DNA of 64,000 nt, from NCBI RefSeq assembly GCF_947500605.1, contig NZ_CANMSJ010000001.1, forward strand, positions 434,001-498,000, read 5' to 3'. The notes under the pieces are model-generated. The model made no database searches. It was given only the letters and a program-made list of their open reading frames with translations, and was not told the DNA's origin. Of this stretch, positions 3,545 to 55,039 are shown one piece after another; within the stretch, counting starts at the first letter, position 1; each line of letters begins with the position of its first letter. The stretch is from an uncultured Lacinutrix sp. (GTDB lineage Bacteria > Bacteroidota > Bacteroidia > Flavobacteriales > Flavobacteriaceae). Made by a program: the position numbers and the translations under genes.

Positions 3545-4159
3545 ATGCCATATTTTAGTTTAGAGGACATTAATAATTTACAGCATCTCTATAAAATAAA
3601 CCTTATTAATAGTTGCTCTGGTTTTAAATCTGCCAACTTAATTGGCACAAAATCTATGGAAGGTATTGAAAATGTTGCTATATTTAGTTCTGTAACTCAT
3701 GTTGGTTCTAATCCTCCAATTTTAAGCTTCTTTTGTAGACCAACAACGGTTACTAGAGATACTTATAAAAATATAAAAGAGACTGGTGTTTATACAATAA
3801 ACCATGTACATGAATCTAATTTTAAAGAGGCGCATCATACTTCGGCTAAATACGATTCAGATATTTCAGAGTTCGATAAAACAAATCTAATTTCAGAATA
3901 TAAAGAAAACTGCTTTGCTCCTTTTGTAAAGCACTCACCTATCCAAATGGAGATGAAGTTTGTTGGAGAATATAATATTAAAGAAAACGGAACCATTTTA
4001 GTTTTAGGAGAAATACAAGGTCTTTATATAAATGAAGATATAGTGGCTGATGATGGCTTTATAAACCTATCTGAAGCGAAAGTTACTGCAATTAATGGAT
4101 TAGATGGTTATGCTTTTCCTAAGTTAAAAGAAAGATTAGATTACCAAAGACCTAAATAA
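3545..4159 (+). CDS. flavin reductase family (FMN-binding split barrel) protein
   Basis: The 204-residue protein matches the flavin reductase-like split-barrel family: FKSANLIGTKSMEGIENVAIFSS, then VTHVGSNPPILSFFCRPTTVTRDTYKNIKETGVYTINHV. The conserved N-x-A-x-F-S and R-D-T-x-x-N-I positions are visible. Members bind FMN/FAD and reduce or exchange flavin using NAD(P)H. In this operon a role in supplying or protecting the flavin chromophore of the photolyases is plausible but not shown. It starts at the base after the preceding stop, so coupling is tight. Confidence 0.8.
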   Translation: MPYFSLEDINNLQHLYKINLINSCSGFKSANLIGTKSMEGIENVAIFSSVTHVGSNPPILSFFCRPTTVTRDTYKNIKETGVYTINHVHESNFKEAHHTSAKYDSDISEFDKTNLISEYKENCFAPFVKHSPIQMEMKFVGEYNIKENGTILVLGEIQGLYINEDIVADDGFINLSEAKVTAINGLDGYAFPKLKERLDYQRPK

Positions 4160-4225
4160 ATCTTTAGAATTGAAGAGCACATAATTAATCATAATTAAGT
4201 GATTACAGATAATTGAAATACAACC

Positions 4226-5650
4226 ATGAAAATATTAGTTACAGGTGCAACAGGTTATATAGGTAAACGTATTATTCCTTTACTTATAGAGCAAGGTCAT
4301 ACTGTAATTTGTGCTGTAAGAGGAAAACTACGTAGCGAAAAACGTTATAGTGAAGAAGATAATGTACAAGTAATTGAAGTCGATTTTTTAAACGAAGACA
4401 CTTTAGAAAACATACCTAAAGATATAGATGCAGCATATTACCTAATACATTCTATGTCTAACTCTATTTCTCGTTTTCAACAAATGGAAAATGACTGTGC
4501 AATAAACTTTAAAACTGTTATAGAAAAAACAGATTGCAAACAGGTTATCTATTTAAGTGGTATAACTAATGACACTAAACTATCCAAGCATTTACTTTCT
4601 CGCAAAAATGTAGAAAACATACTAAACTCTTCTAAATATGCTTTAACCGTTTTTAAAGCCGGTATTATAGTTGGTTCTGGAAGTAGTTCTTTCGAAATTA
4701 TAAGAGATTTAGTAGAAAAACTACCTGTAATGGTAGCTCCTAAATGGTTAAATACAAAAACACAACCTATTGCAATAAGAGATGTCCTTACTTTTTTAAC
4801 TCGCAGTTTAGGAGATAAAAGGTTATATAATACATCTTATGATATTTTTGGACCAGAAATTCTAACTTATAAAGAGCTTTTACTAAGGTTTGCTAAGTCT
4901 CGAAATTTGAAAAGATATATCCTCACTTTTCCAATAATGACACCTCAGTTATCTAGTTATTGGCTTTATTTTGTTACATCTACTTCATACAAATTGGCTA
5001 GAACTTTAGTAAATAGTATGGGTGTTGAAATTATTGGTAAAAGTAGTGATATCAATACTCTATTAGATATTAATCCAATGACTTATGAAGAAGCATTACA
5101 ATTTGCTTTTGTAAGAATTAAGCAAAACAGTATTGTTTCAAGCTGGAAAGATTCTTTTGCCAGTAGTAGAGAAAAAAAACGTATTTCTACAAAATATATT
5201 AATGTCCCAAAATACGGCTGTTTTAAAGATGTTAAAGAACTTAAAGTTTTAGATGAAGACAGAACATTCGCTAAAATATGTGCTATAGGAGGTGAAAATG
5301 GCTGGTATTATGGAACAACTTTATGGAGAATTCGTGGATTTTTAGACAAAATGGTTGGAGGTATTGGTCTTCGTAGAGGTCGTACTAATAAAGACACTAT
5401 TAAAACTGGAGATGCATTAGATTTTTGGCGTGTACTTTTAGCAGATGAGGAAAACAAACGACTATTACTTTTTGCTGAAATGAAACTCCCGGGAGAAGCT
5501 TGGTTAGAATTTAGAGTAGCAAAAGGTAAAGTTTACCAACGTGCTGTTTTTAGACCAAAAGGATTAGCAGGAAGGCTCTATTGGTACAGCGTTTTACCAT
5601 TTCATGGTTTAATATTTAATGGCATGATAAAGAAACTTGCAAATGCCTAA
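4226..5650 (+). CDS. NAD(P)-binding SDR with C-terminal DUF2867 domain
   Basis: The 474-residue fusion begins with an atypical SDR Rossmann domain ([20 protein letters not shown], residues 1-20; VIYLSGI near 112; extended to about 300). A C-terminal DUF2867 domain follows (about 320-470: [60 protein letters not shown]). This two-domain architecture is widespread in bacteria and often lies next to photolyase and cryptochrome genes. Its substrate is unknown. It overlaps the DUF2256 gene by 8 bases. A 66-base gap precedes it, the largest in operon 1. Confidence 0.85.
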
Positions 5651-5795
5651 AGGTATTAAAAAACAAAATTTACCATCTAAAATATGTTCCACTTGTAACC
5701 TCCCATTCTCATGGCGTAAAAAGTGGGAAAAGGAATGGGAGAATGTAAAATATTGTAGTAAAAAATGCAGCAAAAACAAAGTAAAACAAGTCTAG
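5643..5795 (+). CDS. DUF2256 small zinc-ribbon-like protein
   Basis: The 50-residue product has the DUF2256 pattern: [20 protein letters not shown] then [12 protein letters not shown]. Two CxxC/CxxxC pairs (C15, C18, C38, C42) can bind one zinc ion, and the WRKKW motif is the family hallmark. It overlaps the SDR-DUF2867 gene by 8 bases and the CRY-DASH-like gene by 31 bases in a different frame. The triple overlap shows it is translated in this operon. DUF2256 genes are repeatedly found beside cryptochrome/photolyase genes, and the molecular role is unknown. Confidence 0.85.
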
Positions 5796-7078
5796 TTTGG
5801 TTTAGAAATGATCTAAGAATTAACGATAATAGTTCTCTTTTAAATGCTATTAGAAATAGTGAAACTGTTATTGCTGTCTATTGTTTTGATCCACGACATT
5901 TTGAGAAGGATAAATTTGGATTTAAAAAAGCACAAAAATTTAGAGCAAAATTTCTAATTGAAACTATTTCAGATTTAAAACTACAATTATCCAATCTTGG
6001 GATTCCTCTTTATGTTTTTAACGATTATCCTGAAAATTGCATTGCTAATTTAGAAGCGCAATACAAGTTTGATGCCTTATACCTTCAAAAAGAGTGGACA
6101 GAAGAAGAGTACAATGTTTATAAGCTTGTTACAGCTATTTGGGATGACACCTTTACAGTTCATCAAGACTACAATCAGTTTTTATACCATCCTGAAGATT
6201 TAAAATTCGATATTAAAAATTTACCTAACGTATTTACCGATTTTAGAAAACACGTTGAAAAACAAAGCATAATTCGAACTATAAATGAAATCACTAATAT
6301 TAAAAACAAGAATAATTCTATAAAAAATACTACTTCTGTTCCTTCTTTAAAAGATTTAGGTTTTGAAGATTTCACTAATCATCCTAATTCAGCTTTTCCA
6401 TTAAAAGGCGGAGAAACCGAAGCTTTAAAACATTTAAATAATTATTTTTTTGAAAGTAAAAAACTAGGCTTTTATAAAAAAACAAGAAATGGTTTAATAG
6501 GAAAAGATTTTAGCTCGAAATTCTCACCTTGGTTGGCTAATGGCAGTTTAAGTGCAAAAACTATCTATTATAGAGTAAAAGAATTTGAGGCTATTCATTT
6601 TAAAAACCAATCTACCTATTGGTTAATATTCGAACTAATATGGCGAGATTACTTCAAATACGTATCACTAAAACATGGCAATAAAATCTTTAAAATTGAA
6701 GGCCTTTTAAATAAAGATTACCAATGGCACACTTTTGAAAAAGATATTCAAAAATGGATTAATGGAAAAACTAACGAACCTTTTGTAAATGCAAATATGA
6801 TAGAATTGCAAAAAACAGGTTGGATGAGTAATCGCGGCAGACAAAATGTTGCAAGCTATTTTGCTAAAACTCTAAAACTAGATTGGCGCATTGGTGCCGC
6901 TTATTTTGAATCTATGCTTATAGATTACGATGTGCATAGCAATTATGGAAATTGGCTCTATGTTTCTGGTGTTGGCAACGATCCTAGAGATAGAATATTT
7001 AATGTTAAACTTCAAGCAGAGCGATATGATAGTTCTGGAAAGTTTCAACGTTTATGGTTACAGGATACACTATTTTAA
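5765..7078 (+). CDS. cryptochrome DASH-like / photolyase family protein
   Basis: The 437-residue flavoprotein has an N-terminal photolyase alpha/beta domain ([46 protein letters not shown], typical of CRY-DASH) and a C-terminal FAD domain. The FAD domain shows [34 protein letters not shown], the [10 protein letters not shown] block and [12 protein letters not shown], then [20 protein letters not shown] proteins bind FAD and MTHF, repair CPDs mainly in single-stranded DNA and may signal light. It overlaps DUF2256 by 31 bases and is followed 9 bases later by the Fe-S photolyase gene. DASH assignment is from motifs, not phylogeny. Confidence 0.85.
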
Positions 7079-7087
7079 AAATACAAT

Positions 7088-8620
7088 TTGAAAACATTAA
7101 GACTAATATTAGGTGATCAACTTAACAGCAAACATTCTTGGTTTAATGGAGACCAAAGCAATTATGTATACTGTTTTTTTGAAATGCGCCAAGAAACAGA
7201 CTATGTAAAACATCACCTTCAAAAAGTAATTGGATTTTTTGCTGCAATGCGAGAATTTTCAAAAGAATTACAAGCCAATGGCTGTGACGTGGTTTACTAC
7301 AATTTAGATACTAAAGAGAACACTCAAAATCTTTCAGATAATCTTAATCAATTAGTTAAAGCACTTGATATAGAAAATTTTGAATATCAAGAACCCGATG
7401 AGTATAGGCTAGACCAACAACTTGTAACGTTTTGCAAAACACTTTCTATTAAATCTAAAGTATATTCTACCGAGCATTTCTATACCAAAAGACAAGATTT
7501 GACTGCTTTTTTTAAAGATAAAAAACAGTGGATCATGGAAAGTTTTTATAGAGACATGCGAAAAAAACATGATGTCTTGATGGTTGCCGGACAACCAGAA
7601 GGTGGCAAATGGAATTACGATAAAAGCAATAGAAATAAATGGAAAGAAAAAGAAAGTATTCCTGAGTTTAAGGCTTTTAAAAATGATGTTTCAGAAATTC
7701 TATCAGTAATAAAATCTGAAAAAATTGAAACTATTGGTCATTTTAATTCAAAGTATTTCGAATACCCAATCAATAGAAAACAAGCACTCGAACAGTTAAA
7801 ATATTTTTGCGAGCATTTATTAATTCATTTTGGAGATTATCAAGATGCTATGCATACAGAACAAGTATACCTCTTCCACTCTCGCCTATCTTTTGCGATG
7901 AATTGCAAAATAATTTCGCCAAAAGCAATTGTAAAAACTGTGTTAAATTACTGGAGAAAACATGGAGATGATATTAATATTTCTCAAGTAGAAGGTTTTA
8001 TAAGGCAAATTATTGGTTGGCGAGAATATATGCGTGGTATGTATTGGGCTTTAATGCCAGAGTATAAAACGCTTAATTATTTAGAAAATACAAGTACATT
8101 ACCAGACTTCTTTTGGACAGGAGATACAAAAATGAATTGCCTAAAAAGTGCAATAACTAATTCTTTAGATAATGGATACGCACACCATATTCAAAGATTA
8201 ATGATTACAGGAAATTATGCACTATTAACACAAATTAATCCGGATGAAGTTGATGCGTGGTATTTAGGTATTTATGTAGATGCTGTGGAATGGGTACAGT
8301 TACCAAACACAAGAGGCATGAGCCAGTTTGCCGATGGTGGAAAAATAGCAACGAAGCCTTATGTTTCTAGTGGAAGTTATATTAATAAAATGAGCAACTA
8401 TTGTGATGATTGCTATTACAATAAGAAAGAGAAAATTGGAGAACGTGCCTGCCCTTTTAATAGTTTGTATTGGAATTTTTTAGACGATAAACGCGAAAAG
8501 CTAAACACTAATTTTAGAATGAAAATGATGTATAGTTTATTAAACAAAATGAATCCTGAAGATTTACATAACATTAAACTAAGAGCTAGTGATATTATTA
8601 AAAATCCAGATAATTATTAA
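7088..8620 (+). CDS. Fe-S bacterial cryptochrome/(6-4) photolyase (PhrB/CryB type)
   Basis: The 510-residue protein begins with the FeS-BCP signature [16 protein letters not shown] and has the C-terminal cysteine set C351, C439, C442, C455. The C-x2-C-x12-C spacing and the isolated upstream Cys match the [4Fe-4S] ligands of Agrobacterium PhrB. Other family blocks are visible: [15 protein letters not shown] and [15 protein letters not shown]. Characterised members repair (6-4) photoproducts using FAD, a ribolumazine antenna and the cluster. The start codon is TTG at 7088. The last base of the stop (8620) is the first base of the next ATG, so translation is coupled. Confidence 0.9.
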
Positions 8621-42540: not shown

Positions 42541-43911
42541 ATGATCCCTAAATTATTACAATCTCAAAAAGAATATTTTAAAACTGGAGAAACAAAATCT
42601 ATTGCTTTTAGAAAACAAGCTTTAAAAAGACTTAAAACGGAGCTTATAAAACGTGAAAACGATATCATTGAAGCTTTAGCTAAAGACTTTAAAAAGCCCG
42701 CATTCGAGTCTGTTTTAACAGAAACGGTAGTTGTCCTTTCAGATTTAGATTTAATGATTAAAAACATCTCTAAATGGTCTAAACCTAAGCGAGTACTACC
42801 TGCTTTAATGAACTTTCCGTCTACAGACAAATTGTATTCTGAGCCTTATGGACAAACACTAATCATTGCACCTTGGAATTATCCTTATCAATTAGCAATT
42901 GCTCCAATGGTAGCTGCTATTGCTGCAGGAAATACGGTTGTATTAAAACCGAGTGAACTTACTCCAAATACTTCAACGTTATTAAACACAATTATTAAAA
43001 CTGTTTTTAAACCAGAACATGTTTGTGTTGTTGAAGGTGGTGTAGATGTATCTACTACTCTACTTGCACAACGTTGGGATTATATTTTCTTTACAGGAAG
43101 TGTAAATGTTGGTAAAATTGTTGCTAAAGCTGCAGCTGAAAATCTAACACCAATAACATTAGAATTAGGTGGTAAAAATCCATGTATTATAGACGAAACA
43201 GCAAATATAAAACTAACTGCCAAACGTATTGTTTGGGGTAAATTTTTAAATGCAGGACAAACCTGTATTGCTCCAGATTATATATTAATTGCCCAAAATA
43301 AAAAAGAAGCTTTTTATAAAGCTATGAGGGCTGAAATTGAAAAAGCTTATACTAACAATCCTAAAGCATCAGAAGATTTTTGTCGTATTGTAAACCAAAA
43401 GAATTTTGAGCGTTTAAATGGAATGCTTACAAACGAGAACTGCATTATAGGTGGACAAACAGATGCCAAAACATTATACATCTCTCCTACTCTTATAGAT
43501 GAACCAAGTTTAGACAGTGAAGTCATGAAAGATGAAATATTCGGTCCAATACTTCCTGTTATTTCTTATAAAAATGAAGCAGAAATTGAAACCATAATTT
43601 CTAAATACGAAAAACCATTGTCGCTTTATGTGTTTAGCACAAATTCAGCGAAAGCTAAAAAAGTAATTGAAAAATTCTCTTTTGGTGGTGGCTGTATTAA
43701 CGATACTGTTGTTCATTTTGCTAACCATAGATTACCATTTGGCGGTACTGGTAATAGTGGTATTGGTGCTTACCATGGTAAATTATCTTTCGATACTTTT
43801 TCTCACCAAAAAGCAGTTGTTAAAAAAGGAAACTGGTTAGATTTACCGGTACGTTATGCTCCTTATACAGGAAAGTTAAAAAAGGTCAAGAAGATTTTGA
43901 AATGGTTATAA
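42541..43911 (+). CDS. aldehyde dehydrogenase (ALDH3-like)
   Basis: The 456-residue ALDH has the ALDH3-type short N-terminus and the family core: IIAPWNYPYQLAIAPMVAAIAAGNTVVLKPSE, FFTGSVNVGKIVAKAAAE, the general base E in LELGGKNPCIID and the catalytic Cys in FLNAGQTCIAPDYILI. The C-terminus LPFGGTGNSGIGAYHG is typical. It oxidises aliphatic or aromatic aldehydes with NAD(P); the substrate is unknown. It is convergent with the histidine kinase gene. Confidence 0.92.
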   Translation: MIPKLLQSQKEYFKTGETKSIAFRKQALKRLKTELIKRENDIIEALAKDFKKPAFESVLTETVVVLSDLDLMIKNISKWSKPKRVLPALMNFPSTDKLYSEPYGQTLIIAPWNYPYQLAIAPMVAAIAAGNTVVLKPSELTPNTSTLLNTIIKTVFKPEHVCVVEGGVDVSTTLLAQRWDYIFFTGSVNVGKIVAKAAAENLTPITLELGGKNPCIIDETANIKLTAKRIVWGKFLNAGQTCIAPDYILIAQNKKEAFYKAMRAEIEKAYTNNPKASEDFCRIVNQKNFERLNGMLTNENCIIGGQTDAKTLYISPTLIDEPSLDSEVMKDEIFGPILPVISYKNEAEIETIISKYEKPLSLYVFSTNSAKAKKVIEKFSFGGGCINDTVVHFANHRLPFGGTGNSGIGAYHGKLSFDTFSHQKAVVKKGNWLDLPVRYAPYTGKLKKVKKILKWL

Positions 43912-43924
43912 TCAAGGAAATATA

Positions 43925-44758
43925 TTATTTCTTTTCATGATTATAAGGATACTTTATTTCTAATACAACACCTTCACCAACCTTAGAACTTAGATTATAC
44001 TCTGTATTAATCAGTTCTGCACGGCTTTTCATGTTAAGTAATCCTGATCCTTTTTCTACAGTATCCATATCGAAACCTTTTCCGTCGTCACTTGCTACTA
44101 TTACAAGCTTATCTTCTAAATAATTTAATTTTACTAATAAATTTTTAGCTTGAGAATATTTTACCGTGTTAGAAAAGAATTCTTGAAGTATTCTAAAAAT
44201 AATAATTTCATGCTTTGTATTTTTAAAAGGTACAATCTCTCCCTTGACATGCAATTCTGCAGTAGCAAATCTTAATTTTTTAAGTCTATTTAATTCATTT
44301 TCAATAGACTGTTCAAATCCAATATTTAAAACAACTTCATTATTTAAAGAACGAGATAACATTCTCACTTCTTTTAAACTCTCTTTTACAGTACTTGCAG
44401 CTTCGGTAAAGTTCTCTTTTACATCATCACTAACTTGTGTTTTTAGTATGTTCATTTGCATACTTGCAGCAGCTAGTAATTGACCCACATTATCGTGTAG
44501 TTCCCAACCAATATTTTTTAAAGTTTGTTCTTGTATTTCGGTTTGTGCATTACTTAATTCTTCCTCAAAAGCTTGCTGTTGCTTAATTTTATCAATCAGT
44601 AATTTGTTTTTCCTTTTCTGAAAAACAATAAAAAACAAAATAACCAAAGCGGTTACTATTACTAAAACACCAATCATATAGATTAATAAATAGCGTTCTG
44701 CGGAAGTGGATTTTTTCACCTCTTGAAATATAGAGGATAGCATTAGTAAATTATACAT
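43925..44758 (-). CDS. histidine kinase of the HisKA_3/NarL type, without sensor domain
   Basis: Starting at ATG 44758 (overlapping the previous stop by 8 bases) gives 277 residues. One TM helix (about residues 22-48) is followed by a short coiled coil, the HisKA_3 box with phospho-acceptor His (NIGWELHDNVGQLLAAASMQMNIL) and an HATPase_c domain (ILQEFFSNTVKYSQAKNLL; SDDGKGFDM; GSGLLNMKSRAELI). It has no input domain of its own. The overlap with the 7-TM gene suggests that protein supplies the signal (inference). No response regulator gene is adjacent. An upstream TTG-type start at 44830 would duplicate part of the 7-TM gene and is rejected. Confidence 0.85.
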   Translation of the reverse strand: MYNLLMLSSIFQEVKKSTSAERYLLIYMIGVLVIVTALVILFFIVFQKRKNKLLIDKIKQQQAFEEELSNAQTEIQEQTLKNIGWELHDNVGQLLAAASMQMNILKTQVSDDVKENFTEAASTVKESLKEVRMLSRSLNNEVVLNIGFEQSIENELNRLKKLRFATAELHVKGEIVPFKNTKHEIIIFRILQEFFSNTVKYSQAKNLLVKLNYLEDKLVIVASDDGKGFDMDTVEKGSGLLNMKSRAELINTEYNLSSKVGEGVVLEIKYPYNHEKK

Positions 44759-45458
44759 AATGAGGTTGTGGTTTAGAAATGATAAGGCCAATAGCAAAAC
44801 AAGAATACATAAAGATATTGGCAAAAACAAAAATGCGTCTTTTTAAATAGACAAAATCGAAGTCTACAACGGTATTATATGCTTCAAAAAATAAAATTGG
44901 AGTAACTATAAGCCACCATATTAAGATTGCGCTTAAAGCATAAAAACTATATGTTTTTAAAGCATTTGAAATAGTTTCAGAATTAATTAATTCTATAAAG
45001 TAGACTGAACACCCAATTAATAAAGTAAATGCTCCCGTAAATTGATAATAAGAATCATGCGCTTTAAAAAACACATTTGGATAAATATAAAAATGACTTA
45101 GCATGAGCACAAAATATACGCCACCTAAAACAAGAATAAATCTTCTATTAATATTATTACGTAATACACTATATATGTAATATAGTATTAATAATACTGT
45201 GCCAAATATCCAAAACAAGTTATACCAAGACATACTATTAAAGCCTATACTTCTAAGGTATGTGGTTAGCTTAAAATTATTATCATAAAAAAAAGTAGCT
45301 CCTGTAAAATCTATTAGTACAATGTAAATTAAAAATAGAATAAAAAATGTAGTTGTTGTGCCTTTGTATTTTTTTAAACATAAGAGTCCTGTGAGCATTG
45401 CTAAAAACTCAAAAAAATAGCTTATAAAATTAAAATTCTTTGTTATAAATTCTAGCAC
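44751..45458 (-). CDS. 7-TM protein A of the triplicated module
   Basis: The 235-residue integral membrane protein has seven predicted helices and no long soluble domain. It is a paralog of the proteins at 46186 and 47521: all three share the first-helix block GLLCLKKYKGT, a V/I-D/W-F helix after a Y-x-x-x-F/N, a W-W-L-I/V-x-T helix near residue 190 and the tail IFVFANIFMYSCFAIGLIISKP. Its 3' end overlaps the histidine kinase start by 8 bases. It is a candidate receptor for that kinase. It is 152 bases downstream of the broken small-protein copy. Confidence 0.8.
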   Translation of the reverse strand: MLEFITKNFNFISYFFEFLAMLTGLLCLKKYKGTTTTFFILFLIYIVLIDFTGATFFYDNNFKLTTYLRSIGFNSMSWYNLFWIFGTVLLILYYIYSVLRNNINRRFILVLGGVYFVLMLSHFYIYPNVFFKAHDSYYQFTGAFTLLIGCSVYFIELINSETISNALKTYSFYALSAILIWWLIVTPILFFEAYNTVVDFDFVYLKRRIFVFANIFMYSCFAIGLIISKPQPHYV

Positions 45459-45610
45459 TAAGTTGTAGGATTAATAGCATTACAAAAATACGCTTTAATT
45501 TTACAACTCGATCTTTTAAGGTTTAGATAAAATTAAATTTACTCAAAATTTAAGGTATAAAAAAAGCAGCTATAAATATTACAACTGCTCATTCTTAATG
45601 TTTGTATAAA

Positions 45611-46118
45611 TCAATCTGGATAACCTTGTCCTGGTGGCATACCATCATGACCTCTATTAAGTCCATCAGCACCTGGAATATCACCACTTCCATAACTATC
45701 TGGTCTTAAAAATTCTCCATTTTTGTTAGTAAAACTATCTCCTGTTGGCACCATAAAAATTGTAGAGTTTCCTGCATTTTCGCTTCCATCATTTTCAGGA
45801 TAAGCTGCATAATACACACGAACACCATCCATTTCGTAACCTAATTCTGTTGCTTGATTTTCTGCATAGTCTAAATAATTACGCATGTCTTCTAATGACC
45901 ACCAACCAGATCTATTGTCTGGTTAAGTCCTTGACTTATTCATTTCAAATGCTCTTGATTTTGTCCATTCATCATTTAAGACTTTGGCTCTCTCGAGAGA
46001 AATTACACCAGATGGCGCAATAATTTCCTTTTTTGTAGAGGTTTCGGTTTCTACTGATTCATCTTTGGTACAAGCAAACACAGTGATACTAATAGACTAA
46101 ATAATTTAGTTTTTTCAT
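45611..46118 (-). pseudogene. degraded small-protein copy A of the triplicated module
   Basis: Translating from the ATG at 46118 gives MKKLNYLVY then a stop at once. A shift of one base opens a frame reading ISITVFACTKDESVETETS (lipoprotein-like Cys), IAPSGVISLERAKVLNDEWTKSRAFEMNKSRT, then TAA, then PDNRSGWWSLEDMRNYL. The rest is an intact ORF (91 codons) ending GHDGMPPGQGYPD. Thus it carries a 5' frameshift and an internal nonsense codon relative to the copies at 46893 and 48232, which read VDNRSSWYSIEDI and PDNRSSWYSLDDM there. Either a real pseudogene or, less likely, two sequencing errors. Confidence 0.7.
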
Positions 46119-46185
46119 ATTTATTAATAGTTTAAGTTAATTATAAATGTAGTATTCTAAAACGAAGAATCAAAACTTTATGTTT

Positions 46186-46887
46186 TTATTTTTCTGGTTT
46201 TGATACTATTAAGCCTATCGTAAATACTAGATACATAAAAAAATTAGCGAATAAGTAAATTTGCCATTCTAAAAATATAAAATTCCAATCACTACCTCTA
46301 GTGTATAAATCAAAAAATGAAATTGGAGTTGTAATTATCCACCAGACAAATATTGCACTAGCTATATAAAAATAAATAGTACTATAAAATTTAAGTATTG
46401 TATTGCTTTGTAGTAATTCTAAATAGTAAAGTACCGAACTAAGTATCATAACTAAAGCTCCGATAATTTGTAATAAAGAGAAGTATTGGTAAAAAAACTT
46501 TTGATAATTTACTAATAAATAAACCGTAGCAAAAAAAACAAATAAATAAGTGGCTATTTTCAAAACTTTTACATGAAGCTTTACAGTAAGTATTCTTTGA
46601 AAAAAAATTGAAAATAATACAATTGCACCAATATCAAAAAAAATAGTGAAATACCAATAATTATTTCTAAATACTGAGTTATATATGGAGTTTAAAAAAT
46701 CAAAAGTATCATAATAATGAGCGTAGCTTCCTAAAAATTGGACAAGAAATAAGTAAAAAATTATTTTAATAAAAAAAGTAACAGGTGTTGCTTTATATTT
46801 CTTATAAAAAATAAGTCCTGCAACAACTGCTACTAATTGAATACCATAAATGATAAACATATAGTATTTTATTAAAAAATTTTCCAA
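46186..46887 (-). CDS. 7-TM protein B of the triplicated module
   Basis: The 233-residue protein has seven TM helices, with the family markers VVAGLIFYKKYKATPVTFF, a Y-Y-D-T-F-D-F block shared with copy C, WWIITTPISFFDLY and IYLFANFFMYLVFTIGLIVSKPEK. It follows the small protein at 46893 by 5 bases, so the two are coupled. No enzyme motif is present. Confidence 0.8.
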   Translation of the reverse strand: MENFLIKYYMFIIYGIQLVAVVAGLIFYKKYKATPVTFFIKIIFYLFLVQFLGSYAHYYDTFDFLNSIYNSVFRNNYWYFTIFFDIGAIVLFSIFFQRILTVKLHVKVLKIATYLFVFFATVYLLVNYQKFFYQYFSLLQIIGALVMILSSVLYYLELLQSNTILKFYSTIYFYIASAIFVWWIITTPISFFDLYTRGSDWNFIFLEWQIYLFANFFMYLVFTIGLIVSKPEK

Positions 46888-46892
46888 TAGAT

Positions 46893-47369
46893 TTAATTTG
46901 GATATCCTTGTCCTGGAGGCATTCCTCCTCCTGCTCTATCCAAACCTTTAGCTAAAGGATCGTCATTATTTGGATCGTTTTCTCCAGGTTTATAATCTGG
47001 GTTTGGTACCGTTGGCACCATGAAAATGGTTGTTTTACCACCTTTACCTAAACTATCATCAACACCTAAATAAAACCTAATACCTGTAATATTATTATTC
47101 TCACCTTCAACTATAGATAAGTAGCTTTTAATATCTTCTATAGAATACCAAGAAGAGCGATTATCTACACCTCCAAAAGCAACAGAATCATTAACATGTT
47201 TTCTGTAGTCTGTCCAATTATCGTTTAAAGCTTTTGCTTCTGTTGTTGATATTAATCCTCTTGGAGGATCTTGTGTTGGTAAAGCTCCAACATTGTTTTT
47301 GCAGCAATAGAAGTACATAATTAGTATTCCTATTAGTAGGCCTAATACAAGCCCAATTAAGATTTTCAT
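46893..47369 (-). CDS. small protein B of the triplicated module (N-terminal TM)
   Basis: The 158-residue protein has an N-terminal TM (MKILIGLVLGLLIGILIMYF then CC) and a soluble domain shared with copies A and C: GLISTTEAKALNDNWTDYR, VDNRSSWYSIEDIKSYL, NNITGIRFYLGVDD, TTIFMVPT and the tail DRAGGGMPPGQGYPN. No known domain is recognised. It is an uncharacterised family. The partner 7-TM protein B is encoded 5 bases downstream. Confidence 0.75.
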   Translation of the reverse strand: MKILIGLVLGLLIGILIMYFYCCKNNVGALPTQDPPRGLISTTEAKALNDNWTDYRKHVNDSVAFGGVDNRSSWYSIEDIKSYLSIVEGENNNITGIRFYLGVDDSLGKGGKTTIFMVPTVPNPDYKPGENDPNNDDPLAKGLDRAGGGMPPGQGYPN

Positions 47370-47424
47370 TTTTTTTAGTTTAAAAGTTAGTCATAAATGC
47401 AATAAAGGTTTTATTACAAATTAA

Positions 47425-47455
47425 TTAGTATTTATATTAAAAAAATAAATACTAA
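47425..47455. repeat. AT-rich perfect hairpin between modules C and B
   Basis: TTAGTATTTAT and ATAAATACTAA form an 11-bp stem around a 9-base A-rich loop. It lies 66 bases after the 7-TM C stop. It may be an attenuator or terminator, but lacks a G/C stem. Confidence 0.35.
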
Positions 47456-47520
47456 AGTTTACATCATAGATATAATTTTAAAATTAATAGCGATTTAAAA
47501 GTAATAAAAAAAAATGACTA

Positions 47521-48225
47521 CTACTTCTTTTCTGGTTGCGAAACTATTAATCCTATGGAAAAAATTGAATACATAAAAATATTTGAGAAAATGTAAATAC
47601 TTCTTTTTAATAAAACGAAGTTTTTATCTTCTAAAACATAATACTTTTCAAAAAACACTAACGCTGTCATAACAAGCCACCATAAAAAAATAGTAGCACT
47701 TATATAAAAATATAATGATGTTGAAAAGTATAGAATTTTATCTCCTTTAAGAATCTCAATAAAATGAAGTGATGCACAGCATAATATAACTATTGCTTGC
47801 AATACATACAAAATAGTATATGCTGATTTAAAGAGAGCGTCTACATTATAAAAAATTAAACCTAGCGCAAAAATAAAATAGGCTAATGCTATATATTTTA
47901 TTATAGATTTAAAAATCTGATTTTGTAAAATCTTTTGATACAAAATAGCGAAAAAAGAGACAGCAATTATATCAAAAAATACAGTAAACCACCAATTATT
48001 CCCTCTAAAAACACTGTTTTTTATTGGCTCCAAAAAGTCGAAAGTATTATAATATTTAGGGAACATTCCTAAAACATCAATCAAAAAGAGATAAAGCAAT
48101 AACCATATAAAAAAAATGGCAGCAGTACCTTTATACTTTTTTAAACAAAAAAGCCCAGTAATTGCAGCCAAACCTTCTACACTATGAGTAATTAAACTAT
48201 TATAATAAACTAAAAACTCTAACAT
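47521..48225 (-). CDS. 7-TM protein C of the triplicated module
   Basis: The 234-residue protein has seven TM helices with GLFCLKKYKGTAAIFFIW, YYNTFDFLEPIKNSVFRGNNWWF (shared with B), IFLWWLVMTALVFFEKYY and IYIFSNIFMYSIFSIGLIVSQPEKK. The pattern of conserved aromatic and charged positions within helices is the same as in copies A and B. It is coupled to small protein C by a 6-base gap. Confidence 0.8.
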   Translation of the reverse strand: MLEFLVYYNSLITHSVEGLAAITGLFCLKKYKGTAAIFFIWLLLYLFLIDVLGMFPKYYNTFDFLEPIKNSVFRGNNWWFTVFFDIIAVSFFAILYQKILQNQIFKSIIKYIALAYFIFALGLIFYNVDALFKSAYTILYVLQAIVILCCASLHFIEILKGDKILYFSTSLYFYISATIFLWWLVMTALVFFEKYYVLEDKNFVLLKRSIYIFSNIFMYSIFSIGLIVSQPEKK

Positions 48226-48231
48226 GAAATT

Positions 48232-48594
48232 TTATTGAGGGTATCCATTCTGTACTGGATCTCCTTGTTCTCCTCTATCCATTCCTTTTGCATTAGGAAT
48301 ATCTTTATTATTTCCTTTACCATCAGCTTCTGTTGGTACCATAAAAATAGTTGTTAAGCCTTTAGGATCTTTTTGGGTAGTTTCAGTACCTAAATAAAAA
48401 CGAACTCCGTTTACATTTTTATTTTCTTCTTTAATTAGATTTAAGAAATCTTGCATGTCGTCCAGCGAATACCAAGACGAGCGATTATCTGGTTTACCAG
48501 CAGCTGTGTTGTTTTCTCTAGATCTTAGTTTTGTCCAATTGTCGCTTAAATCTTGAGCTTCACCAGCTGTAATAATTCCTTTAGGTATAGACAT
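48232..48594 (-). CDS. small protein C of the triplicated module (no signal)
   Basis: The 120-residue protein begins MSIPKGIITAGEAQDLSDNWTKLR with no TM or signal. The same domain follows: KPDNRSSWYSLDDMQDFL, KNVNGVRFYLGTET, LTTIFMVPTEADG and the tail GEQGDPVQNGYPQ. Compared with B it is cytosolic, and compared with A it lacks the lipoprotein Cys. The three copies therefore differ in membrane attachment but share the domain. It heads the cluster. Confidence 0.75.
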   Translation of the reverse strand: MSIPKGIITAGEAQDLSDNWTKLRSRENNTAAGKPDNRSSWYSLDDMQDFLNLIKEENKNVNGVRFYLGTETTQKDPKGLTTIFMVPTEADGKGNNKDIPNAKGMDRGEQGDPVQNGYPQ

Positions 48595-48754
48595 AGTTTT
48601 GTTTCGTTAATTAATAGCGTTTAAATTAATAAAAGATGTGAATATATAAATATTTAACAGTTTTTGCTTAATTATTTTTATATTCTATCACTTTTAGTCC
48701 GAAACAATACTGTTATTTTATCATTATACAATTTTACCTCTATTTTATTTACTA

Positions 48755-50293
48755 CTAACCCAACCAACCTTCTCTATCTAAACTTCTATATTGAATGGCT
48801 TCACTTAAATGACTACCATTAATATCTTGTGCGCCTTCTAAATCTGCAATAGTTCTCGATACTTTTAAAATTCTATCGTAAGCTCTTGCAGAAAGATTTA
48901 AACGTTCCATAGCCGTTTTTAATAATGTTTTTGAAGCATCGTCTAATTTACAATGTGTACGAATTTGTTTTACATGCATTTGTGCATTGTAATGTACTGT
49001 TTCAGATTCCTTAAATCGTTCTGTCTGTCTTTCACGGGCTTCTGTAACTCGTTTTCTTATATCTATTGATGGTTCTGCTTTTCTATCGTCTGATAATTTA
49101 TCGAAAGGCACAGGAGTAACTTCTATATGAATGTCAATTCTATCTAACAATGGTCCAGATATTTTACTTAGATAGCGTTGCATTTCTGCAGGACTTGAAG
49201 TTACTGGAGAATCTGGATCGTTAAAATAACCACTCGGACTAGGATTCATACTTGCAACCAACATAAAAGATGAAGGATAAGTAACTGTAAATTTTGCTCT
49301 AGAAATAGTGACTTCTCTGTCTTCTAAAGGCTGTCGCATTACCTCTAAAACTTCTCGCTTAAATTCGGGCAATTCATCTAAAAACAAAACACCGTTATGG
49401 CATAAAGATATTTCTCCTGGTTGCGGATAACTGCCGCCGCCTACGAGTGCAACGTTTGAAATTGTGTGATGTGGACTCCTAAACGGACGCTGAGCCATTA
49501 ATCCTGAATTTGCTTTTACACGACCAACAACCGAATGTATTTTTGTAGTTTCTAACGCTTCTTTTAACGACATTGGCGGTAAAATACTTGGCAAACGTTT
49601 GGCTAACATTGTTTTTCCTGCTCCAGGAGGACCAACTAAAATAATATTATGACCTCCAGCCGCTGCAATCTCCATGCAACGTTTAATTCCTTCTTGTCCT
49701 TTTACATCGGCAAAATCGAAATCGGGATAATCTAAATTCTTATAAAATTCTTCTCTTGTGTTTATTATGGTTTGCTCTATAGCTTCACCTTTATTGAAAA
49801 AATTAATGACTTGCTTAATGTTTTCTATACCATAAACCTTTAAATCACTAACTATTGCTGCTTCTTTTGCATTTTGGATAGGCAATATAAATCCTTTAAA
49901 ACCTTCTTCTTGTGCTTTTATCGCTATTGGCAAAGCACCTTTAATAGGTTGTAAACTGCCGTCTAAGGAAAGCTCTCCCATTATTATATAATCTTCTAAA
50001 TCATCAGCTTGAATTTGCTTAGATGCTGCTAAAATACCTACTGCTAAAGTTAAATCGTAGGCAGAACCTTCTTTGCGTAAATCGGCAGGCGCCATGTTAA
50101 TAGTTATTTTTTTGCCAGGAATCTTGTATCCATTATTTTGTAATGCAGCTGCAATTCTATAGTTACTTTCTTTAATGGCATTGTCTGGAAGTCCTACGAG
50201 GTGATATCCTATTCCGGAATTAACGTTAACCTCTACAGTTATTGTAGAAGCTTCGACTCCAAAGACAGCACTGGCAAATACTTTTTTAAGCAT
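48755..50293 (-). CDS. YifB/ComM-family Mg-chelatase-like AAA+ ATPase
   Basis: The 512-residue protein has the N-terminal ChlI/Lon-like domain (VFASAVFGVEASTITVEVNVNSGIGYHLVGLPDNAIKES), the Walker A motif ILVGPPGAGKTMLAKRLPSILPPM, Walker B LCHNGVLFLDELPEFKREVLEVMRQPLEDREV and the C-terminal helical sensor domain (LNLSARAYDRILKVSRTIADLEG). ComM proteins are helicases used in natural transformation in some bacteria. A role in uptake here is not shown. Confidence 0.9.
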   Translation of the reverse strand: MLKKVFASAVFGVEASTITVEVNVNSGIGYHLVGLPDNAIKESNYRIAAALQNNGYKIPGKKITINMAPADLRKEGSAYDLTLAVGILAASKQIQADDLEDYIIMGELSLDGSLQPIKGALPIAIKAQEEGFKGFILPIQNAKEAAIVSDLKVYGIENIKQVINFFNKGEAIEQTIINTREEFYKNLDYPDFDFADVKGQEGIKRCMEIAAAGGHNIILVGPPGAGKTMLAKRLPSILPPMSLKEALETTKIHSVVGRVKANSGLMAQRPFRSPHHTISNVALVGGGSYPQPGEISLCHNGVLFLDELPEFKREVLEVMRQPLEDREVTISRAKFTVTYPSSFMLVASMNPSPSGYFNDPDSPVTSSPAEMQRYLSKISGPLLDRIDIHIEVTPVPFDKLSDDRKAEPSIDIRKRVTEARERQTERFKESETVHYNAQMHVKQIRTHCKLDDASKTLLKTAMERLNLSARAYDRILKVSRTIADLEGAQDINGSHLSEAIQYRSLDREGWLG

Positions 50294-51460: not shown

Positions 51461-54400
51461 TTACTTTTTTATAAACTTTAATGATTCTTGTTTATTTCCT
51501 GATTTTATCTCTAAAAAGTATAAGCCTTGAGATAGATTACTAACATCTAATTTAGCTTTTTTACTTTTTGAAGTTATTGTATTTAATAACCTTCCATTAA
51601 TATCGTAAACAGCAACAGATTCTATAACGATTTCTCCTTCTATATTTAATATGTTATTTACTGGATTAGGGAATATTGAAAAACTTGATGTTTCAAAATT
51701 CTTTACAGATAATGTATTAACTATTTCTGTGTTTACTGTGTTTGTAACAATTGCTGGATTAAAATCGAAGAAAATATCTGCAGTATTATTAAAAATGTCT
51801 CCAATAACAACATTTGTTTTGGGTTTTATTTTATAAGCTATAAAACCGTGAGAATTAGTTTCGTCGCTTGTACTATCTGGTAAATTAATATTATCAAATA
51901 TAAATTTAACCATACTACCATTTGTAATTTCTACTCTACCAGTATGGCTTAAACTTTCTAATTGCATGGTTGTCCAGTCTAGTTTACTATCTAAAATGTT
52001 TTCTACATTAACGTTTATAGCACTTGCTGTTCCTGTATTTTGAAAACGGATGATATAATGTAAATACTTATCTGCATCTGCTAATAATATTTCTTCACCT
52101 TCCAAAACTCTAATATCGTTTGGATCGTAAGAACCAATTACGGTTTGGTTAAGTGTGAAAACATTATCATCTGCTGTGTTATCTCCTGTAACAGGATTTA
52201 CTGTTGCTGTTGATACTAAAACATCATTAATATTTGTAGTTGGTGGTGCAAATACATTAAATTCTAAATCTATTGTTCTTGTTTCAAATGGATTTAAGTC
52301 TGTAAAATTAAAGGTTAAAGTGTTTGCTGTTTGTGAAACTATTGTTTCGCTTGCGTTTAAGAAATTTAACTTTGCATCATCAAACTCGAATGTTACATTT
52401 CCACTTAATTGTGTTGTGCCTACATTATTATATATTATTTGGTAAGTAGCATCAAAACCTGGTCTTGGTTCGTTTATAGATGGATAAACTGAAATGTTTA
52501 GGTCGTTTATTGAACCTATTGGTTCTATGCAAAAATCTATTGTATCAATATTATCTACACCAGCAAAATTTGACACTTGAGAAATAGGGCTAGATACATA
52601 ATAATTAGGCAAATTAGAAATAGTAGTTGTAAAATCTCCTTGGTCTACAAATAGTTGATAACTACCATTGTTTAAAGAAAATGTAGCTACATCTTGAGTA
52701 CCATTATTAGTGTTAATCATTATATTACTCAATGTGTTGTCTAATACACTACAGCCGTTTCCATCTAAGTCCACACGTATTTCACCATTAATTTCATTAA
52801 ATGAAATCCCTAAATTTTTGTACCAAACAATCTTTTCTGATGGTTCAGAAAACGAAAGATCTTTAGAAGAAAGCAAATCAATGTTGCCATCATTATTAAT
52901 ATCTGCTGCATGTAAAGAGGAAGCTCCATTAAATCCAGTTGTAGCAATAACCTGCTGAGAACCAAAAGTTCCTTGACCATCTGTGTTTTCGTACCAAACA
53001 AGACTATCATCGTCTAAGGTAATAGAAAATATATCCATATCACCATCGTTATCTATATCTGCTGCATAAGCTGATATAGCACCTTGCGCATTAGTTGTTA
53101 TAATTTGTTCAGCACTAAATGCACCTTGTCCATCTGTGTTTTCGTACCAAGCAATTTTATTATCGTTTTCCGAAGCAGAATACACATCCATATCTCCATC
53201 ATTATCAATATCTACAGCATAAGCAGTATCAGCATCTTGTGTTGTGATAATTTGTTTGGGGCCAAATGCACCTTGTCCATCTGTATTTTCGTACCAAACC
53301 ACCATATTATATAATACAGAAAGCACATCCATGTCTCCATCGTTATCAATATCTGTAGCGGAAATTACTAGAGGACTATCATTATTTGATATCGTTTGTT
53401 TAGGGCCAAATGTACCTTGTCCATCTGTATTTTCGTACCAAGATATAAGAGTTTCATCAAAAGAAGAGGTGACACCATCATCTATTGATCCCATAAGCAC
53501 ATCCATATCACCATCGTTATCTATATCTACGGCATAAACTAACATAGGATAGTAAAGCCCATTTGATATAATTTGTTCTGTACCAAAAGTGCCTTGCCCA
53601 TCTATATTTTCATACCAAGAAACATAACCATCCTCTCGAGCAGCAGAAAGTACATCTATATCTCCATCGTTATCCAAATCTGCGGCATAAACCGACGTAG
53701 TATCATCTGCATTATTATTTATTACTTGTAAATTTCCATAAGTTCCCTGCCCATCTGTGTTTTCATACCAAGCTACACTATTATTAAATATTGATGCTGA
53801 GAGCACATCCAAATCACCATCATTATCTATATCTGCAGTATAAATAGATGAAACGCCTGATAAAGTTGATTCACTTCCTAAAGTTTGTTGAGAAGAAAAA
53901 GTACCTTGACCATCTGTGTTTTTATACCACTTTAAATAACCAGGATTACTGTTTTGTCTAAAAATAACGGCTAAATCTATACCTTCTTCGTTATCTATTT
54001 CAACTGGAAAAACTCCACCAATAGAGTCTATACTTGAAATGATAATTTGTTCTGCTCCAAAAGTTCCTTGACCATCTGTGTTTTCGAACCATGATACATT
54101 ATAAGAATCATAAAAAAGCACATCCATATCACCATCACTATCTATATCTGTAAGATTAATTAAACTAGTACCAGATGAAACAGTTACAGATTGATGTAGT
54201 ACAAAAGCACCTTGCCCATCTGTATTTTCATACCATACAATCTCAGTGCTTTTTTGAGCAAATACATCTATATCTCCATCATTATCAATATCAAAAGTTC
54301 TAACATAAGAAGTTTGTCCTGTAGTTCCTGAAGCTATAATTTGTTGAGTACCAAAAGTACCTTGACCATCTGTGTTTTCAAACCAAACAACCTTACTATC

Positions 54401-55039
54401 GTTAGTGGAAGAAAAAAGAACATCTATATCACCATCGTTATCAATATCTGCTGTGTCAATAGTACTTATTAAGTTTATATTAGACGCTATAATTTGTTCA
54501 GAACCAAAAGCACCTTGTCCATCTATGTTTTCGTACCAAACTACTTCACCATCATTACTATAGCCTGCTGCAAGAATATCACTATCTCCATCGTTATCTA
54601 TATCTACAGCATAAACTAAACCAGCTTGATCTAGAGTTGCAATAATTTGTTGAGCACCAAAGGTACCTTGACCATCTGTGTTTTCGTACCAAGCAATCTT
54701 ATTGTCGTCTTTAGAAGCTGAAATCACATCCATATCTCCATCATTATCTATATCTGAAGCATAGATTGATTCAAATTTTTCTGCATTAACTGTTATGGTT
54801 TGATGAGAGCCAAAAGTACCTTGCCCATCTGTATTTCTGAACCAATATATTTTACCATAATAATCAGAAGAAATCAAATCCATGTTTCCATCGTTATCTA
54901 GATCTGCAGCATAAACAGCTACAGCTCCAGATGGATTTGAAGCATTATCATATACAATTTGTTCTTGAAACCCTATTTGCCCAAAAGCTGTGAAACAGCA
55001 TAGTATAAAAACGAAAATAAAACCTATTTTTTTGTTCAT
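51461..55039 (-). CDS. T9SS-secreted VCBS/FG-GAP repeat protein (1192 aa)
   Basis: A signal peptide (to AFGQ, about residue 20) is followed by about 13 tandem units of roughly 50-60 residues. Each unit holds a calcium-binding-like D-x-D-N-D-G-D-x-D loop and a W-Y-E-N-T-D-G-Q-G-T-F-G strand (FG-GAP/VCBS type). A beta-sandwich region follows (DUF11-like, GSYDPNDIRVLEGEE... at about 950-1080) and a T9SS type A sorting domain ends it: FSIFPNPVNNILNIEG to LKFIKK. It is secreted and probably surface-attached. The partner is unknown. The + strand ORFs in the repeat region are shadows. Confidence 0.9.
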   Translation of the reverse strand: MNKKIGFIFVFILCCFTAFGQIGFQEQIVYDNASNPSGAVAVYAADLDNDGNMDLISSDYYGKIYWFRNTDGQGTFGSHQTITVNAEKFESIYASDIDNDGDMDVISASKDDNKIAWYENTDGQGTFGAQQIIATLDQAGLVYAVDIDNDGDSDILAAGYSNDGEVVWYENIDGQGAFGSEQIIASNINLISTIDTADIDNDGDIDVLFSSTNDSKVVWFENTDGQGTFGTQQIIASGTTGQTSYVRTFDIDNDGDIDVFAQKSTEIVWYENTDGQGAFVLHQSVTVSSGTSLINLTDIDSDGDMDVLFYDSYNVSWFENTDGQGTFGAEQIIISSIDSIGGVFPVEIDNEEGIDLAVIFRQNSNPGYLKWYKNTDGQGTFSSQQTLGSESTLSGVSSIYTADIDNDGDLDVLSASIFNNSVAWYENTDGQGTYGNLQVINNNADDTTSVYAADLDNDGDIDVLSAAREDGYVSWYENIDGQGTFGTEQIISNGLYYPMLVYAVDIDNDGDMDVLMGSIDDGVTSSFDETLISWYENTDGQGTFGPKQTISNNDSPLVISATDIDNDGDMDVLSVLYNMVVWYENTDGQGAFGPKQIITTQDADTAYAVDIDNDGDMDVYSASENDNKIAWYENTDGQGAFSAEQIITTNAQGAISAYAADIDNDGDMDIFSITLDDDSLVWYENTDGQGTFGSQQVIATTGFNGASSLHAADINNDGNIDLLSSKDLSFSEPSEKIVWYKNLGISFNEINGEIRVDLDGNGCSVLDNTLSNIMINTNNGTQDVATFSLNNGSYQLFVDQGDFTTTISNLPNYYVSSPISQVSNFAGVDNIDTIDFCIEPIGSINDLNISVYPSINEPRPGFDATYQIIYNNVGTTQLSGNVTFEFDDAKLNFLNASETIVSQTANTLTFNFTDLNPFETRTIDLEFNVFAPPTTNINDVLVSTATVNPVTGDNTADDNVFTLNQTVIGSYDPNDIRVLEGEEILLADADKYLHYIIRFQNTGTASAINVNVENILDSKLDWTTMQLESLSHTGRVEITNGSMVKFIFDNINLPDSTSDETNSHGFIAYKIKPKTNVVIGDIFNNTADIFFDFNPAIVTNTVNTEIVNTLSVKNFETSSFSIFPNPVNNILNIEGEIVIESVAVYDINGRLLNTITSKSKKAKLDVSNLSQGLYFLEIKSGNKQESLKFIKK

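Follow-up and report, generated by a model that had tools for sequence, protein, structure and literature searches.

Kinases of the LiaFSR/VraTSR type have little or no sensor domain and are paired with a LuxR-type regulator. Both three-component systems and fused bacterial seven-transmembrane receptors are described in earlier reports (PMC3543457, PMC6107284, PMC10653868), and BtsS is presented there as a LytS-type kinase with a pyruvate-binding seven-transmembrane domain (PMC10653868). Here we analyze a locus in a 64,000-nucleotide stretch of DNA from an uncultured Lacinutrix species (the window), in which tandem genes for a small protein (SMALL) and a stand-alone seven-transmembrane protein (7TM) run into the gene of a histidine kinase that lacks a sensor domain. 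We consider it likely that this is a split-sensor two-component system, in which SMALL and 7TM together serve as the input receptor of the sensor-less kinase. All genes lie on the minus strand and, read in their own direction, occupy 48594 to 43925, with lengths in amino acids (aa) and transmembrane (TM) segments as predicted:

48232 to 48594, minus strand: SMALL1, 120 aa, a soluble form without signal or TM segment, with a C-terminal tail ending in GYPQ
47521 to 48225, minus strand: 7TM1, 234 aa, seven predicted TM helices
46893 to 47369, minus strand: SMALL2, 158 aa, a single hydrophobic N-terminal helix
46186 to 46887, minus strand: 7TM2, 233 aa, TTG start
45611 to 46118, minus strand: SMALL3, a broken, lipoprotein-like pseudogene whose signal segment changes frame and which carries a TAA in frame at 45925-45923
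44751 to 45458, minus strand: 7TM3, 235 aa, GTG start
43925 to 44758, minus strand: HisKA_3/HATPase_c histidine kinase, 277 aa from the ATG at 44758, one TM helix, H, N and G boxes intact

The original prediction described these genes as three paralogous pairs on one strand leading into a kinase, and all of them are in place on the minus strand. 7TM2 and 7TM3 are 41% and 36% identical to 7TM1; relative to SMALL1, identity is 48% for SMALL2 and 36% for what remains of SMALL3. A search of the whole genome (3.5 Mb, 40 contigs) retrieved three SMALL genes (E = 9.5e-80, 1.1e-27 and 3.8e-16, with the next match at 0.28) and three close 7TM genes, so the array is not a product of chance. A fourth, distant 7TM of 218 aa (C3:379725, E = 1.5e-11) precedes its own kinase and LuxR regulator without a SMALL gene (L157, 1480-3576). 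Among the motifs said to be shared, WWxxxT and FxN(I/F)FMY are kept in all three 7TM copies; GLxCLKKYKGT holds for copies 1 and 3 but reads GLIFYKKYKAT in copy 2. Similarly, DNRSSWYSxxD is common to SMALL1 and SMALL2 but not to SMALL3 (DNRSGWWSLED), in which the supposedly shared TTIFMVPT reads STIFMVPT. The third pair was rightly called broken, and its SMALL gene carries two lesions, the stop codon and the frame change. The proposed differences in attachment hold for SMALL1, which lacks a signal because an in-frame TAA lies 12 nucleotides 5' of its ATG, and for the TM form SMALL2, whereas the lipoprotein nature of SMALL3 can be read only across its lesions. The kinase has the single TM helix ascribed to it when read from ATG 44758, which overlaps the 7TM3 stop and is most likely the true start; a longer open reading frame (ORF) of 301 aa from an upstream TTG does not share this property.

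The SMALL/7TM/kinase design is general and extends beyond the window. We assembled 62 regions (60 fetched, four related loci and the window, minus L063, L065 and L067, which repeat related loci), all of which contain a 7TM gene and most of which were picked by a 7TM match, with 10 of the 62 (12 of the 60 fetched) picked by a SMALL match. In 59 of these regions a same-strand kinase gene lies no more than 1.1 kb from a 7TM gene, and a SMALL gene is present in 56, or in 58 with a later SMALL profile, which found none in L078, L144, L148 and L151. Response regulators are encoded within 1.1 kb in 25 of the 62 and within 2.5 kb in 26. In a reverse set of 20 further regions picked by a SMALL match, mostly second loci of their genomes, all 20 have SMALL, 7TM, kinase and response regulator in that order on one strand (order judged by eye). 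The gap between SMALL and 7TM has a median of 9 nucleotides (n = 93). The pairs are thus linked to kinases elsewhere too, as the original prediction required, and its suggestion of a signaling module feeding a common kinase is supported. The same gene order in many relatives means that SMALL and 7TM are most likely the detachable receptor of the kinase. Triplication, in contrast, is not part of the design as had been thought: regions hold one to four 7TM and zero to three SMALL genes, with one of each in 30 of 62.

The two families also co-occur at the level of genomes. We sampled 299 mutually related genomes of the same taxonomic family, scoring 9-11 candidates per genome, so that absences are approximate; the relatedness of the genomes also deprives the p-value of a Fisher test on co-occurrence of real weight. 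The 7TM family turned up in 165 of them with a profile built on the three window copies and in 195 with a broader profile (A5). All 188 genomes in which SMALL was detected also have 7TM; 7TM occurs alone in 7, neither family in 104 and SMALL without 7TM in none. In a second sample of 395 genomes across the phylum, an intermediate profile (A3) detected 7TM in 34, of which 14 lie outside the taxonomic family.

The HisKA_3 kinases of this set are intact in their catalytic motifs. The window kinase exceeds the Pfam cut-offs for HisKA_3 (42.9 bits, cut-off 24) and HATPase_c (33.1 bits, cut-off 26.4), and all 75 full-length members of the HisKA_3 class, on which the check was made, retain the phospho-acceptor H, the N and three G positions; the set has a further six LytS-type kinases. 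Where the G1 box begins with D in 44 HisKA_3 kinases, another 27 have N in its place. A single hydrophobic helix is present in 79 of 82 linked kinase ORFs, one of which is a 58-aa fragment; the three exceptions (the window kinase, its counterpart in Lacinutrix algicola and L066) have a second hydrophobic stretch at residue 1, which in the window stems from the upstream TTG start, and L066 begins alike. Two kinase/regulator classes use the module, HisKA_3 with LuxR and LytS-type His_kinase with LytTR, as assigned by Pfam for two kinases (window and L083) and two regulators (L083 and L086) and by similarity for the remainder, including the kinases of L085, L087, L146, L225 and L232, which are LytS-type like that of L083. 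No response regulator lies beside the window kinase, so in the window's clade the regulator must sit elsewhere. A search of the window's own genome for it gave seven GerE matches and no established partner: two lie next to their own kinases, two fall in long frames, one has, by eye, no receiver domain, and two look orphan, with no kinase within 1.5 kb. These last two orphan LuxR-type regulators, C4:35422 and C2:105322 (L244, 1474-2100, and L248, 1063-1695), are candidate partners of the window kinase.

Taken as a working model, 7TM would be an inner-membrane receptor with its N terminus outside and its C terminus inside, and SMALL a partner dedicated to it, in most cases with a periplasmic-side anchor and perhaps docking through its conserved C-terminal tail. 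The pair would sense a signal and relay it through helix contacts to the kinase, which, having one TM helix and no sensor domain, would then phosphorylate a regulator of the NarL/LuxR (or LytTR) type, whose gene is part of the operon in many lineages and lies elsewhere in the window's clade. Tandem SMALL and 7TM copies may provide several inputs into one kinase.

Neither family was recognized as a known one, in line with the original prediction: the SMALL and 7TM proteins of the window remain below every Pfam and NCBIfam cut-off. At E 0.1, no Pfam family was matched by more than two of 58 7TM members, and across Pfam and NCBIfam none was matched by more than three of the 58 7TM or of 61 SMALL members. 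We took the scattered family matches, each to one to three members and tabulated with E-values but without cut-offs, to be noise; these include the strongest for 7TM (DUF6962, E = 3.8e-4, one protein) and, for SMALL, a thiamine-binding lipoprotein model (E = 6.4e-5, one member) and a Phr N-terminal model (E = 0.0092, one member). By sequence, 7TM has no match in the PDB and SMALL yields only noise there, and no family of G-protein-coupled receptors (GPCRs) is among the Pfam families listed for the 58 7TM members.

A structure model of 7TM, built on a 14-sequence alignment, has seven helices with a predicted local distance difference test (pLDDT) score of 86.3 and a predicted template modeling (pTM) score of 0.82. 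The helices predicted in 7TM1 span residues 9-26, 36-53, 77-99, 103-126, 137-160, 171-195 and 201-228. Positive residues lie mainly in loops 1-2 and 3-4 and at the C terminus, a pattern from which we infer that the N terminus is outside and the C terminus inside. Among the best 50 PDB matches found by Foldseek, 45 are GPCRs, two LYCHOS and three microbial rhodopsins (E = 0.09-0.9, probability up to 0.99); the best 50 VIA-align rows are all GPCRs or the GPCR-like LYCHOS, with Z up to 13.1, and the top match is the GLP-1 receptor (root-mean-square deviation 4.1 over 213 residues, 6% identity). GPCRs make up most of the seven-helix structures in the PDB. Because of this, and because unrelated helical bundles can reach Z 13 according to the tool's own warning, we call the modeled fold just GPCR-like, a likeness that may reflect no more than a common arrangement of helices. 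In the last helix, N215 and Y219 are kept in 97 of 122 and 108 of 122 sequences, with the spacing of the GPCR NPxxY motif, possibly by coincidence. A microbial rhodopsin was rejected, as the conserved Lys was not seen in the core of the last helix (by eye). Variability is higher in the outer half of 7TM than in the inner one (entropy 2.67 versus 2.27, p = 1.7e-5), and the outer half is the more divergent in 17 of 25 non-independent pairwise comparisons.

These data also bear on the idea that 7TM is a transporter or lipid enzyme watched by the kinase, with SMALL as a substrate-binding subunit. Transporter-coupled kinases are known, and SMALL is often lipoprotein-like, as binding proteins are; but the lack of a recurrent family match among the 58 7TM members and the receptors that make up the best fold neighbors render this reading very improbable.

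The SMALL proteins are conserved around two core motifs, DNRSSWxSxxD and TTxFxVPT, and in a C-terminal tail of the form LNxGxxGxPPxxYP(x). A loose version of the tail motif occurs in the last 30 residues of 93 of 103 SMALL proteins, against 129 of 528 other proteins of the same loci and an average of 53 of 103 shuffled SMALL tails. It starts 11-16 residues from the C terminus in 66 of the 93, and PP is found within the last 12 residues of 68 of 103 SMALL proteins compared with 7 of 528 others. By a rough hydropathy rule, 73 of 103 N termini are TM or lipoprotein-like, and the 30 of 103 with no hydrophobic N-terminal stretch include remnants and some wrong starts. The soluble forms carry the same conserved tail. 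Two regions combine a soluble SMALL with an exported one ahead of just one 7TM (L236, 4892-6000; L237, 4178-5274). Proteins of ~310-325 aa that resemble two tandem SMALL domains are encoded in L224 (twice; 4035-6214) and in L226 (5448-6419), where the gene is divergent from the operon.

Comparison with L. algicola, the nearest named relative of the window's genome (95% protein identity over 7TM1), reveals that part of the array has been replaced. The flanking ATPase, which we take to be ComM, and SMALL1, 7TM1, SMALL2, 7TM3 and the kinase are 95-99% identical between the two, as against 56% for 7TM2, whose neighbors are at 95-98%. The difference maps to one block:

45475 to 47027, minus strand: block replaced relative to L. 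algicola, containing the end of SMALL2, 7TM2 and the SMALL3 remnant

This block of ~1.5 kb (L152, ~7200-8190, on the L. algicola side) has fairly sharp edges, and its flanks are mostly 93-100% identical. Four-fold sites differ at 13 of 25 positions in 7TM2, compared with 2 of 47 in SMALL1, 5 of 63 in 7TM1, 11 of 64 in SMALL2 and 4 of 74 in 7TM3; silent divergence is uneven along the locus, with 54 of 195 sites differing in ComM and 13 of 95 in the kinase. We rejected the idea that 7TM2 is one shared, fast-changing gene, as its silent sites differ as well; the block has thus either been exchanged, or the two genomes have kept different members of an ancestral array. In a tree of 51 sequences, 7TM3 falls in a separate clade of nine rows (SH-like approximate likelihood ratio test, 99), eight of which are the last copy of their array, mostly kinase-proximal; other arrays, L064 and L068 among them, have their last copy outside this clade. 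A second case is the pair L132 (3897-5815) and L133, in which DNA identity is 47-83% over most of a first SMALL, a second SMALL and the 7TM gene and 79-92% over the kinase and regulator genes, with 94% and 98% identity between the encoded proteins. There the edge of the divergence is sharp on the kinase side, and the upstream neighbor dips to 63% in places. Two unrelated lineages thus show a SMALL/7TM part that is replaced or highly diverged next to a conserved kinase and, where present, a conserved regulator.

We compared these replacements with the general rate of change. In 16 of 17 close pairs, even the best 7TM identity falls short of that of the kinase. In 12 of the 62 regions, SMALL is directly preceded on its strand by a gene for an Rce1-like CAAX protease (assigned by Pfam for L077, 8615-9247, and by alignment for the other loci). 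Across the 66 pairs of these 12 loci, the median best identity is 61% for 7TM, 65% for the CAAX protease, 76% for the kinase and 49% for SMALL, with the best pair used where loci have several 7TM copies. General hypervariability of 7TM was therefore rejected, as it is just slightly less conserved than its membrane neighbor, and after this control the block replacements alone stand. The window's genome has a counterpart of the CAAX protease gene (L246, 2320-2949, by eye), ~8 kb outside the window.

Replacement of the sensor part with retention of the output part would also fit contact-dependent or pheromone-like signaling, in which the SMALL tail is itself the ligand of a GPCR-like 7TM on the same or a neighboring cell and cassette exchange creates recognition types. 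The tail is conserved beyond its controls and disordered in the model, the outer half of 7TM is the more variable one, the closest folds of its model are GPCRs, and the upstream CAAX protease could be a processing enzyme. Yet the tail is conserved and not variable, soluble SMALL forms bear it too, no exporter was noticed alongside the gene set, and the protease is absent from the window operon and from most regions and may reflect mere synteny. We regard this explanation as quite unlikely. Its boldest form, in which Bacteroidota possess stand-alone GPCR-like receptors that have a histidine kinase in place of the G protein and a membrane-tethered SMALL as the ligand whose tail activates them, with sensor cassettes that are duplicated and exchanged between strains around a fixed kinase and regulator conferring self/non-self or neighbor recognition, is similarly doubtful.

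Alternatively, SMALL could be a brake, an anti-kinase-like accessory that holds 7TM and the kinase off while 7TM senses membrane or envelope stress. A one-TM kinase with an accessory membrane protein resembles LiaFSR, of which LiaF is a negative regulator (PMC3543457), and the distant set on C3 shows that a superfamily 7TM can stand without SMALL. Neither a LiaF-family protein nor another known accessory protein is among the matches listed, however, and replacement of SMALL and 7TM around a conserved kinase fits specificity better than a constant stress signal. A brake is thus unlikely in our view.

Several observations weigh against SMALL and 7TM acting as a joint receptor. Three of the 62 regions (L078, L137 and L149) have a 7TM gene without a kinase. 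The 7TM and kinase ORFs overlap in 73 of 81 cases as called, with starts taken furthest upstream, but only 27 of the 81 kinases have a Met start within 20 nucleotides of the 7TM stop, and the overlap is therefore not usable as support. The SMALL structure model is weak (pLDDT 60.5), with two helices, then two to three strands and the disordered tail, and this low-confidence model has no fold match at E 0.001. SMALL occurs in forms for both sides of the membrane, which no single mechanism explains. Finally, because 7TM is hardly less conserved than its CAAX neighbor, fast change alone is no proof of ligand recognition. The split-sensor interpretation nonetheless remains the one we favor.

Short elements precede several genes of the array, here identified by position in the window:

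48610 to 48618, minus strand: leader element GCTATTAAT, upstream of SMALL1
47483 to 47491: leader element GCTATTAAT, before SMALL2
45470 to 45478: leader element GCTATTAAT, before 7TM3
46121 to 46133: leader variant AAACTATTAATAA, before SMALL3

The window contains six matches to GCTATTAAT compared with 2.15 expected. CTATTAAT occurs in the 150 nucleotides preceding 15 of 91 SMALL genes whose upstream gap is at least 60 nucleotides, and in those preceding 5 of 295 other genes (p = 8e-7, uncorrected for kinship, for a motif chosen after it was sighted in the window, whose genes are counted). In 9 of the 15 it sits 22-27 nucleotides ahead of the start. We take the element to be a putative conserved promoter or leader segment; a sigma-70 scan found fewer promoter-like sites than in shuffled sequence.

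The array is bounded by two genes:

48755 to 50293: Mg-chelatase-type ATPase
42541 to 43911: aldehyde dehydrogenase, convergent

A role in defense-like amplification, which had been floated earlier, finds no backing here: PADLOC matched none of seven proteins at E 0.01, and the four flanking genes scanned are ordinary. Further along the window, 51461-55039 encodes a 1,192-aa FG-GAP repeat protein with DUF7619 and Por_Secre_tail (type IX) sorting domains.

A stand-alone 7TM with a dedicated SMALL partner, tandem copies and a replaceable sensor part was not found in the titles and abstract openings retrieved from an open-access library. The analysis thus proposes a role for two protein families unmatched by Pfam or NCBIfam that occur together in 188 of the 299 sampled genomes, and it would add a split, duplicable receptor design to two-component signaling. 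With a seven-helix receptor that stands free, a dedicated partner and a separate kinase, receptor-kinase coupling could be studied in parts, and the pattern of replacement makes what these bacteria recognize directly testable.

Among described systems, 7TMR-DISM (PF07695) is likewise a bacterial seven-helix receptor that drives a kinase. PF07695 matched 0 of 58 7TM members at E 0.1, and the distant C3 protein reaches it at E = 0.0073 (16.7 bits, below the cut-off of 29). An hhalign comparison of 7TM with 7TMR-DISM gave a probability of 21% over 104 columns, against 0.3% and 0.7% for a control membrane family with a low-diversity alignment, and hidden Markov model searches gave 1 of 27 and 0 of 59 at E < 0.01; kinship of the two is no more than hinted at. 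In architecture they differ, since 7TMR-DISM is fused to a kinase, GGDEF or EAL domain, whereas receptor and kinase each have a gene of their own in the window and throughout the 59 kinase-bearing regions, and SMALL takes the place of the fused extracytoplasmic domain. GPCRs are alike in predicted fold only; here there is no sequence match, and the partner is a histidine kinase. BtsS likewise has seven helices with the N terminus outside and is coupled to a kinase (PMC10653868), but it is one fused protein with a 5TMR-LYT domain and no separate SMALL, and no LytS-type domain match was found among the 58 7TM members. LiaFSR also includes an accessory membrane protein, LiaF (PMC3543457), and the window kinase scores 72.5 bits against the LiaS model (cut-off 450). 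What sets the present locus apart from LiaFSR and VraTSR is a seven-helix protein accompanied by SMALL, receptor genes in tandem copies, and accessory proteins that match no known family.

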